Assembly (NCBI RefSeq): GCF_001431725.1
Contig: NZ_CP013106.1
Span: forward strand, 2,604,001-2,668,000
Source: Halomonas huangheensis
GTDB taxonomy: Bacteria; Pseudomonadota; Gammaproteobacteria; Pseudomonadales; Halomonadaceae
DNA: 64,000 bases
Reading direction: 5' to 3'
This document shows positions 33,100 to 44,712 of this stretch, one piece after another. The stretch's first letter is position 1. Each line of letters begins with the position of its first letter. The notes beneath the pieces are model-generated. The model saw nothing but the letters and a program-made list of their open reading frames with translations, was not told the origin of the DNA and did no database searches. The translations under genes were made by a program, and so were the position numbers.

Positions 33100-34773
<1,674 letters not shown>

Positions 34774-41935: not shown

Positions 41936-43291
41936 TCAAAGGGCCATGGCCGCTGCCCAGCCAAATGCGATCAAGGGTATGTTGTAGTGAAGGAAGGTCG
42001 GCACCACGCTGTCCCAGATATGGTCATGCTGGCGGTCGACGTTGAGCCCCGACGTCGGGCCGAGAGTCGAATCTGACGCCGGCGACCCGGCATCCCCCAG
42101 CGCAGCTGCGGTGCCCACCAGCGCCACTGTCGCGAGTGGCGAAAAGCCGAATTCGATGGCCATCGGCACGAACAGCGCCGCGATGATCGGAATCGTCGAG
42201 AAGGAGGAGCCGATTCCCAGCGTAATGAACAATCCGACCAGCAACATCAGCAAGGCCGCGAGGCCGCGGTTGTCACCGATCACGTCAACACTGGTTGTCA
42301 CCAGACTGGTCACATCCCCGGTCGCCTCCATCACCGCGGCGAAGCCGGAGGCCGAGATCATGATGAAACCGATCAGCGCCATCATGCGCATACCGCTGGT
42401 GAACAGGTCATCCGCCTCGCGCCATTTGAAGATGCCGCCAACCGACAACAGCGAGAAGCCGACAAGACCACCAAGAATCATCGAGCCGGTATACAGTTGG
42501 ATCGCCAACGCGGCGATGATCGCCACCACCGACATTACCAGGCCCAGAGTATGGGGCTGAGACGGGGTTGAGTCACTGGACTCGCCATGAGCATGACCTT
42601 CTGCCAGCTCCGCCATCTCATAATCACGGGGGCGTCGATAACTGATGAATACCGCCACCAATAGCCCAAGAAACATGCCAGCCACCGGAACGCCCATCGC
42701 CACCGGCACCATGGAGCGATCGATCTCCAGCCCCAGCGCAGCCCCCGCATTATTGATGTTGGCCAGCAGAATGTCGTTGAGGAAGATGGCACCGAAGCCT
42801 ACCGGCAACAACATATACGGAGCGGTCAGACCGAAGGTCAAGGCACAGGCCACCGCACGACGGTCCATGCGTAGCTGGTTCATGACCTTGAGCAGCGGCG
42901 GAATCAGTATCGGGATAAAGGCGATATGTACCGGAATCAGATTCTGGGAGGAGATGGCTACCAGCAGCACACTACCCAACAACAGATACTTGACAGTGGC
43001 TTGACGTGATGCCGAAGTCCCCATCCCCAGCATGCGGATCAATCGATTGGCCAACAGATCCGGCAGTCCCGAGCGCGAGATAGCGACAGCAAAAGCGCCT
43101 AGCGTCGCGTACGCCAATGCGACCTTGGCACCATTACCTACCCCATCGTTGAAGGCCGCAAGGGTATCCTCGATAGACAGGCCACCCACCAGGCCGCCGA
43201 CCAAAGCACCGACAACGAGCGCCAGCACCACAGAGACTCTAGCCAGCGATAGACCAACCATCACCAGCACAGCAATTATGACAGCATTCAT
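41936..43291 (-). CDS. Na+/H+ antiporter family protein
   Basis: 451 residues with about 11-12 membrane helices. [33 protein letters not shown] opens the protein. [32 protein letters not shown] and the closing [39 protein letters not shown] are typical of the YuiF-like branch of the ion-transporter superfamily, annotated as Na+/H+ antiporters or amino-acid permeases. Salt or pH homeostasis is a plausible role in a halophile. ATG 43291 with GGA upstream was used; about 98 residues of open frame upstream of it are not protein-like. Confidence 0.8.
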
Positions 43292-43534
43292 GGAGTGTCC
43301 AACTTTCACCTGGGCGGGCAGTCGGCAAGCGGCCAGGGCAATCAACCAGCCTGTCTGCACCGCGCTTGATTGTCCTTGAGCGATGAATGCTCTGGATCTG
43401 CTCGCCAATGACGCTTTCGCGCACTGGAGCACAGATGCAAAGCGGCAGAGATGATAGCAGAAACGCCAGCTCGGGACTCTCCCGGAAACACGCCAGGAAT
43501 ATGCCACAAAAATGTCATTTAAATGATACGTCGC

Positions 43535-43712
43535 CGTCATCCAGGTGGGAGACACTCTACTCGTGCCATCAGGAGGCACTGGCAAGGGACACTGCCCCCG
43601 TACGTCAGGGATGCGATGACGCTGGAAGCGTCATAGGGAGAACAGCGTCGGGATGACGCTTCAGGGAGGAACCTGCCCATTTCACGCCACGGCAATTTGC
43701 CGTGGCGTTTTT
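43535..43712 (+). ncRNA. CsrB/RsmZ-type CsrA-sequestering small RNA (predicted)
   Basis: About 180 bases with roughly nine GGA motifs, most displayed in hairpin loops. GTGCC-ATCAGGA-GGCAC is at 43563-43579 and GGCA-AGGGACAC-TGCC at 43581-43596. ATGACGCT-GGA-AGCGTCAT is at 43616-43634, AGCGTC-GGGAT-GACGCT at 43644-43660 and CAGG-GAGGAA-CCTG at 43662-43675. Unpaired CAGGGAT and AGGGAG lie between them. The RNA ends in a 12-pair terminator with five T. This is the hallmark of RNAs of the CsrB/RsmZ kind, which bind many CsrA/RsmE dimers and relieve translational repression. No open reading frame fits and both flanking genes are on the other strand. The 5' end is uncertain, and no GacA box (TGTAAG-N6-CTTACA) was found. 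Confidence 0.8.
43684..43712 (+). terminator. Rho-independent terminator of the GGA-rich small RNA
   Basis: ACGCCACGGCAA and TTGCCGTGGCGT are perfectly complementary around one base, followed by a run of T ending at 43712. The T-run is on the plus strand only, so it ends plus-strand transcription although neither neighbouring gene is on that strand. Confidence 0.92.
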
Positions 43713-43752
43713 CATCGAGTTCGAGCCTGTAAATGAATCTGTGACTCTGAGT

Positions 43753-44712
43753 TCAATCTTTTGCGGTTGCGAGACTTTCCCAGACTTCAATCGCTGCAGC
43801 CAGATCCTCGAGTGACGCTCCTACCGACTTGAAGACAGTAATTGCCTGCGGCGAGGAACGACCGGCCTTCTCCCCATGCAGCAATTCCGCCAGCTCAGCA
43901 CGTACATCCTGTCGGGCAAACTCACCTTCATCGATGGCCTGGAGAATATCGCCAGCCTCACCGAAGGCGCCAGCATAGGTATCGACAAACACCTCGCTCC
44001 GGGTCAGGCAGCGTGCATCCGTCTCGCGCATCGAGTGTCGGAAGGCGCCAATCAGATCCAGATGGCAGCCCTCACGAAGCCAGTCACCATGGATAAGTGG
44101 CTCGGTCGATAGCGTGACGCAACTGATGATATCGGCTTCGGCGCAGGCACTCTGCAGATCCGACACCACCTCGCAGTCGAAACGCTGACAATACTCCTCG
44201 ACCACGGCTTGAGCACGGGCCTGATTGCGTCCCCAGACCCGTACCCGGCGAATCGGGCGCACAGCCGCATGCGCCTCGATCACCATCGGTGCCAGTTTGC
44301 CTGTGCCCACCACCAGCAGCGTCTCGGCATCCTCGCGCGCCAGTTCGCGTGCTGCCAATGCCGATGCCGCCGCGGTGCGACGTCGCGTCAGTTCCGCACC
44401 ATCAATGGCCGCCAATGGTTGCCCATGGCGCCCTTCGCTGAGCAGATAGACTCCGGATATGGCTGGAATGCCGTGATCGGCATTCTGTGGGAAGACGTTG
44501 ACCATCTTGACACCGATATAACCACGCTCTTCGCCACGCCCCGGCTCCCAGGCTGGCATCAGCAGCATCGTCGCTTCACCATCGGGTTGCTGCATGGTGT
44601 GATGGTGCCGTGGAGGAGACTCCACTCCCTGGCGAAATGTCGCTGCGAGGCGCTCAACCAGCGCCTGCCAGTTCAGCCTTCGAGCGACTTCCTCTGCGGC
44701 AATCAACTGCAT
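43753..44712 (-). CDS. Ornithine cyclodeaminase/mu-crystallin family protein
   Basis: 319 residues. GYIGVKMVNVFPQNADHGIPAISGVYLL and LAAIDGAELTRRRTAAASALAARELAR are the substrate-side signatures. LLVVGTGKLAPMVIEAHAAVRPIRRVRVWGRN is the NAD(P) Rossmann motif. Family members are ornithine cyclodeaminase, cyclic imino-acid (pyrroline-2-carboxylate) reductases, or alanine and lysine dehydrogenases. The gene follows ridA by one base and ends the deacetylase/TRAP locus, suggesting oxidation or reduction of an imine formed after deacetylation of an imported compound. The exact substrate cannot be told. Confidence 0.82.
   Translation of the reverse strand: MQLIAAEEVARRLNWQALVERLAATFRQGVESPPRHHHTMQQPDGEATMLLMPAWEPGRGEERGYIGVKMVNVFPQNADHGIPAISGVYLLSEGRHGQPLAAIDGAELTRRRTAAASALAARELAREDAETLLVVGTGKLAPMVIEAHAAVRPIRRVRVWGRNQARAQAVVEEYCQRFDCEVVSDLQSACAEADIISCVTLSTEPLIHGDWLREGCHLDLIGAFRHSMRETDARCLTRSEVFVDTYAGAFGEAGDILQAIDEGEFARQDVRAELAELLHGEKAGRSSPQAITVFKSVGASLEDLAAAIEVWESLATAKD

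Follow-up and report, generated by a model that had tools for sequence, protein, structure and literature searches.

Between an antiporter gene and an ornithine cyclodeaminase gene, the Halomonas huangheensis chromosome probably encodes a CsrA-sequestering RNA of about 150 nt that is activated by PhoB and acts alongside a second sponge RNA, linked to fdxA and belonging to a GacA-type class, in the same cell. The gene lies in a 64-kb stretch of DNA (hereafter the window), part of a 4.76 Mb single-contig genome. Comparison of sequences shows a conserved gene with a conserved structure, GGA-bearing loops and a terminator, a Pho-box-like promoter with no recognisable GacA box, and csrA, phoB and gacA-like genes in the same genome. 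From these we infer that the RNA is transcribed, binds CsrA, is activated by PhoB and responds to phosphate; it is best read as a CsrA sponge.

Position and structure of the gene

The earlier note had described a plus-strand small RNA of the CsrB/Rsm kind, a description supported by the conservation of GGA loops in relatives and by the presence of csrA in the genome. Its start had been placed at 43535, which is about 28 nt too far upstream judging from the promoter alignment and falls inside the Pho-box-like array (Table 1). The count of nine GGA motifs in 43535-43712 was right, with eight of them in the likely transcript because the GGA at 43548 sits in the promoter. All five hairpins proposed to carry GGA in the loop can be drawn (hairpins 0 to 4), and the terminator with its T-run was confirmed, with a stem of 11 pairs according to the terminator tool rather than the 12 given originally. 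Its plus-strand polarity fits neither neighbour, as had been claimed, since both flanking genes lie on the minus strand; the gap between them is 461 bases.

Table 1. Features of the small RNA gene, its promoter and its neighbours, with the second RNA of the same genome (positions in the window unless a contig is given; counts over loci or stem pairs)
Feature	Position	Strand	Basis or remarks
Na+/H+ antiporter family gene, upstream divergent neighbour	41936..43291 (start inferred)	-	Pfam PF03553
Pho-box-like array, four 7-bp repeats 11 bp apart	43501..43540	+	alignment and motif
Repeat 1, ATGCCAC	43501	+
Repeat 2, ATGTCAT	43512	+
Repeat 3, ATGATAC	43523	+	degenerate
Repeat 4, CCGTCAT	43534	+
Putative -10, GACACT	43551..43556	+	10 bp past last repeat; alignment with GATAA(C) of relatives, and motif
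Small RNA gene	43563..43712	+	about 150 nt; start set by the putative -10, end by the terminator
Hairpin 0, loop ATCAGGA	43563..43579	+	-6.5 kcal/mol folded alone; outside the alignable core and absent from R1
Hairpin 1, GGCA-AGGGACAC-TGCC	43581..43596	+	GGA in loop 72/72; 96.9% of cells paired
Hairpin 2, loop CAGGGAT, short weak stem	43603..43615	+	GGA in loop 72/72; 82.0% of cells paired
Hairpin 3, ATGACGC-TGGAA-GCGTCAT	43616..43634	+	double changes in 7/7 pairs; 80.1% of cells paired; GGA in loop 70/72
Exposed AGGGA site, single-stranded, linking hairpins 3 and 4	43635..43643	+	GGA kept 71/72
Hairpin 4, AGCGTC-GGGAT-GACGCT	43644..43660	+	double changes in 6/6 pairs; 94.2% of cells paired; GGA in loop 64/72
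Exposed single-stranded CAGGGAGGA site	43662..43670	+	GGA between hairpin 4 and terminator 72/72
Intrinsic terminator, 11-pair stem (43684-43708) then T	43684..43712	+	double changes in 8/11 pairs
Ornithine cyclodeaminase family gene, downstream convergent neighbour	43753..44712	-	Pfam PF02423
fdxA-linked CsrB/RsmZ-type RNA, outside the window	C1:693310-693455 (L215 3311-3456)		R2 match in own genome

The fold of 43535-43715 is better than that of 200 of 200 shuffled sequences (z -3.28). The minimum-free-energy fold of the window RNA joins the arms of hairpins 3 and 4 across and is favoured over the model with local hairpins by 15.7 kcal/mol; the arms of these two hairpins are nearly identical in this genome, while the stems differ in the relatives that make up the 11-sequence alignment described below. 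Hairpin 2 is weak when folded alone (-0.2 kcal/mol), yet it is conserved. The eight GGA motifs fall within 114 nt, compared to a plus-strand mean of 1.50 and a plus-strand maximum elsewhere of 7. The minus strand of the window also reaches eight per 114 nt, in 35 overlapping segments, so GGA density alone is not unique within the window and was not taken as proof.

Conservation and covariation

We consider covarying stems and retained GGA loops, as read from the alignments, to be decisive for the reality of the feature; the GGA count is not. A DNA search gave matches in 12 of 58 genomes including that of H. huangheensis, one of them (G040) by its terminator only. In an alignment of 11 sequences, which was not fitted to a model and whose structure was drawn from two of its rows, 12 of 31 pairs carry double changes, a number as high being reached in none of 500 shuffles. 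A covariance model built from this alignment (R1) scores the window RNA at 122 bits (E 8.5e-29), its own sequence being among the 11 that build the model. R1 matches 88 of 201 genomes of the family and 46 of 51 within the genus, with a best E of 2.7e-8 or lower in 83 of the 88, and across the order it matches 6 of 293 sampled genomes, all six from the same family; searches over more than 40 genomes used stricter filters, under which weak matches may be lost. Nearly all matching genomes have one full-strength copy. The 13 named records found with a strict RNA pattern are all Halomonas (one metagenome-assembled) or Bisbaumannia pacifica.

A larger alignment of 73 rows, comprising 72 loci and one weak antisense match, shows double changes in 24 of the 31 pairs, again with none of 500 shuffles as high, and contains 262 double-change cells, where the shuffles average 77 and the slid controls do not exceed 36. 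Being fitted to the model, it leans towards the structure; the 11-sequence alignment was not so fitted. Conservation of the GGA loops in related genomes had been put forward as a check, and it held: GGA falls in the loops of hairpins 1 to 4 at 72, 72, 70 and 64 of the 72 loci (counting the closing pair as loop), while the median count of TCC, the antisense trinucleotide, over the same loci is 0. GGA in hairpin loops, as ANGGAN, is the signature of CsrB/Rsm RNAs, and stems that vary while loops stay are the pattern expected of CsrA sites (PMC7652899).

The window-type counts leave out L081 (resembling a 3' remnant), L082 (judged a chance match) and L083, L084 and L085 (a third class, see below); L155 and L157 (third class) and L156, L158 and L159 (judged chance) never entered them, and L013, L015 and L018 are loci already counted under other numbers. 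In the H. huangheensis genome itself, a lax R1 scan gave 12 matches at E ≤ 10, of which one is the RNA and another (L147) its terminator read backwards; none was recognised as an extra copy, six of the ten others having been examined (L146 and L148-L152, not copy-like). L081 (contig C22 of G145, about 34530-34680) is an apparent 3' remnant of a window-type RNA about 2 kb from an intact copy, which suggests duplication or movement.

The Pho-box-like promoter

When the DNA upstream of the RNA was aligned between ten relatives and the window, repeats with an 11-bp periodicity became visible, and the profile consensus of the promoters is approximately GTCAT-N6-GTCAT-N6-GTCAC-N6-GTCAT followed by GATA. 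Both this array and the absence of a GacA box were overlooked in the earlier reading of the sequence. A 52-wide profile covering the repeats and the -10 was built from 70 homologous promoters, excluding the window and L005, which is close to L011; it places the window site at 43503 at 31.4 bits, compared to 9.4 for the next best site on either strand of the 64 kb. Within the flanks retrieved, an antiporter homologue adjoins 33 of the 72 loci and a cyclodeaminase homologue adjoins 8, and many loci without the antiporter still carry the repeats; the array therefore travels with the RNA.

The pstS promoter of E. coli contains a comparable series of repeats, which ends about 10 bp before the -10. 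A Pho box has been described as at least two CTGTCAT repeats separated by A/T-rich linkers of 4 bp, and it usually overlaps the -35 (PMC3511308). The window promoter has such repeats and linkers (AAAA and TTAA), its repeats 1 and 3 being imperfect, and the linkers in relatives are often not A/T-rich. The putative -10 is a poor match to TATAAT, and a simple sigma-70 scan found no promoter.

The resemblance to Pho boxes was examined in both directions. With a repeat profile trained on the sRNA promoters, 18 of 20 phoB promoters exceed 8.7 bits, the background maximum in the window, and 10 control promoters of other OmpR-type regulators reach no more than 0.8 bits. Just 4 of 30 pstS promoters pass with the four-repeat profile, and in H. 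huangheensis both the phoB promoter (-8.0) and that of the pstS near phoB (1.2) fail. Conversely, with an 18-wide motif trained solely on 20 phoB promoters, 64 of the 72 sRNA promoters outscore the tenth-best background site and 40 (39 when the motif was rebuilt) also the maximum, the remaining 8 staying under the tenth-best site, which shuffled promoters exceed in 0.9% of cases. The window promoter scores 15.8 against a window background maximum of 13.0. With the rebuilt motif, 19 of 30 pstS promoters outscore the tenth-best background site, 18 of them the maximum as well, and none of the 10 controls outscores the tenth-best site; the promoter of the second pstS of H. huangheensis reaches 19.2 bits, and that of the pstS near phoB 8.6, more than the tenth-best background site (7.2) and less than the maximum (13.0). 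Six promoters of the fdxA-linked class score at most 3.8 with the 18-wide motif. With a 29-wide phoB motif, 28 of the 72 sRNA promoters outscored the tenth-best background site and none the background maximum.

A fixed three-repeat pattern occurs at 40 places in 20 genomes, compared to one for its reversed control. Five of these are sRNA promoters, 16 phoB promoters and one a pstS promoter (22 of 40), the other 18 being unassigned; at the sRNA this strict pattern is present in only 5 of the 18 sRNA-bearing genomes among the 20. H. huangheensis has two such places, one of which is the window array. Its PhoB scores 359 bits with TIGR02154 (cut-off 296.2), and PhoB is above the cut-off in 20 of 20 genomes.

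We propose that phosphorylated PhoB would bind the four-repeat Pho box, which stands in for a -35, and recruit RNA polymerase to the weak -10, so that by this switch the level of the sRNA would climb when phosphate is scarce. Several GGA sites, some in hairpin loops and others in exposed linkers, would then let the RNA capture CsrA dimers and thereby release mRNA targets from CsrA control. Together with the fdxA-linked sponge, it would provide two inputs onto one CsrA.

Two proposed sponge RNAs and their probable regulators

The fdxA-linked sponge belongs to a separate class of GGA-rich RNAs that was exposed by combining GacA boxes with GGA counting and that lies about 150-200 nt downstream of the box. 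GacA boxes with up to one mismatch are present in 23 of the 24 genomes scanned. A model of this class (R2) matches 164 of 201 family genomes and 51 of 51 in the genus. The member in H. huangheensis, on contig C1, is located between fdxA-mutS and a gene that we take to be eno, fdxA being assigned by model; its nearest GacA box is imperfect (3 mismatches), and relatives have boxes upstream. The single csrA of this genome lies 11 kb away at C1:704392, and CsrA gave one match per genome in 20 of 20 genomes tested. The three distinct places in the genome with the GacA-box pattern were rejected as RNA sites, having at most six GGA in the following 150 nt.

The fdxA-linked class is also carried by every one of the 83 genomes in which the window-type match is strong, five genomes with weak R1 matches (G135, G153, G161, G167 and G221; E 1.4e-5 to 8.2e-4) having been excluded before this count, and the window RNA is therefore probably a second sponge. 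The earlier note had called it the main CsrA-titrating RNA, or one of them; with another CsrB/RsmZ-type RNA beside fdxA the fallback stands, and the window RNA is probably not the main CsrB-type RNA. In Pseudomonas, RsmZ adjoins fdxA. The window RNA, between its antiporter and cyclodeaminase genes, is not beside fdxA and so is not a positional orthologue of RsmZ. For part of the Halomonas family we think it quite probable that CsrA sponges are split by signal, into a widespread GacA-type and a lineage-specific PhoB-type; phosphate starvation would in that case be wired directly to the entire CsrA regulon, bypassing GacS/GacA.

A different account, which we consider unlikely, would make the window RNA an ordinary but divergent CsrB/RsmZ-type RNA under GacA/UvrY control, in which the TGTCAT repeats are either incidental or the site of some other regulator of the OmpR type. 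For the OmpR family as a whole direct repeats are typical, and a gacA-like gene does lie beside uvrC (L235), its product scoring 276.7 bits with NF007018, just below the cut-off of 280. However, the UvrY/GacA site is given as TGTAAGN6CTTACA (PMC4682653; PMC4950607), and a plus-strand scan of the 64-kb window for this self-complementary motif found none at up to two mismatches; the best GacA-like site in 43200-43600 has four, and sites with three mismatches occur within 400 nt upstream at just four of the 72 window-type loci (L034, L044, L063 and L075). In these genomes the RNAs with GacA boxes form a class of their own, and the repeats find matches in phoB and pstS promoters but in none of ten promoters of other OmpR-type regulators.

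More improbable still is an RNA under PhoB control that is not a CsrA sponge and acts by base-pairing, its GGA loops being anti-Shine-Dalgarno-like or kept for another protein. A PhoB-linked sRNA, EsrL, has been reported in E. coli (cited in PMC10294691), but double substitutions in the stems together with GGA kept in four loops and two linkers are the signature of the CsrB/Rsm RNAs. That the feature is not a transcribed gene at all but an old repeat or the 3' end of a different transcript seems very improbable: the apparent 3' remnant in one genome (L081 of G145) would fit such an origin, whereas a conserved promoter-like array and terminator of its own, compensatory changes and mostly one full-strength copy per genome argue against it. 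The PhoB-activated CsrA sponge remains our preferred reading; the absence of an Rfam match at the cut-off, the poor -10, the imperfect repeats, the promoters that fall short in the motif scans and the cross-paired fold of hairpins 3 and 4 count against it. The sequence features examined for the CsrB/Rsm class are found in the window RNA, which has several GGA in loops and single strands, compensatory changes in its stems, an intergenic position with its own terminator, and a csrA gene in the same genome.

Compared with known systems, the window RNA resembles RsmX, RsmY and RsmZ of Pseudomonas and CsrB and CsrC of enterics in its multiple GGA in loops and linkers, its intrinsic terminator and its intergenic position. 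It differs from them in falling under every Rfam cut-off, in having a Pho-box-like array and no TGTAAGN6CTTACA, and in not lying beside fdxA. The Rfam search of Csr and Rsm families that had been suggested as a check gave no support, with no matches in the window at the gathering cut-off; under lax settings the best related family was PrrB_RsmZ at 21.1 bits (cut-off 44, E 0.0095). Among the fdxA-linked loci of six relatives likewise none reached a cut-off, the best being CsrC at 28.8 bits compared to 61. The fdxA-linked RNA of H. huangheensis is, like the window RNA, GGA-rich, furnished with a terminator and conserved in the family, but it was found by its own model and is not listed by the R1 scan of the genome.

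CsrA sponges are a known kind of RNA, and there are precedents for inputs other than GacA. CsrC of Yersinia, activated by PhoP/PhoQ, and RsmW of P. aeruginosa, which is not GacA-activated, are also antagonists of CsrA/RsmA (PMC4950607); the regulator of the window RNA is by comparison most likely PhoB, and its array is conserved over many species. EsrL is likewise an sRNA reported to be PhoB-bound and phosphate-related, but in the available text of PMC10294691 it is not presented as a CsrA sponge, and the E. coli ChIP-seq described there did not detect PhoB binding upstream of it; in the same PhoB map, one of the bound sites is at csrA itself (PMC10294691). For E. coli, an indirect effect of phosphate starvation on CsrB/C, by way of ppGpp and UvrY, has been proposed as possible in a review (PMC10191379). 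For Halomonas anticariensis the CsrA-antagonist sRNA was listed as unknown (PMC7366521), and in the open-access literature searched we found neither a Pho-box CsrA sponge nor a name for this RNA.

If our reading is true, it names two CsrA-antagonist RNAs in the Halomonas family, the window one lying below every Rfam cut-off, and provides a direct route by which phosphate sensing acts on CsrA, which globally switches carbon metabolism, motility and biofilm. It would also illustrate how sponge RNAs may acquire new inputs through promoter change. Halomonas is used for the production of storage polymers, which is often induced by nutrient limitation, and a phosphate-driven CsrA sponge would therefore be testable and useful there.

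In G004, G015 and G145, three of the six genomes checked, about 14 kb separate the window-type sRNA from uvrC, an arrangement not shared by H. huangheensis. A third, shorter class of GGA-rich RNA is present in a few genomes (L083, L155, L085, L084 and L157), with GacA-like boxes upstream of the first four at 2, 1, 3 and 0 mismatches, respectively. GacA-like boxes are numerous in some genomes (12 strand-hits in each of G012 and G015), exceeding the sponge RNAs seen there, and the surplus in genomes of this type possibly reflects a wider GacA regulon.
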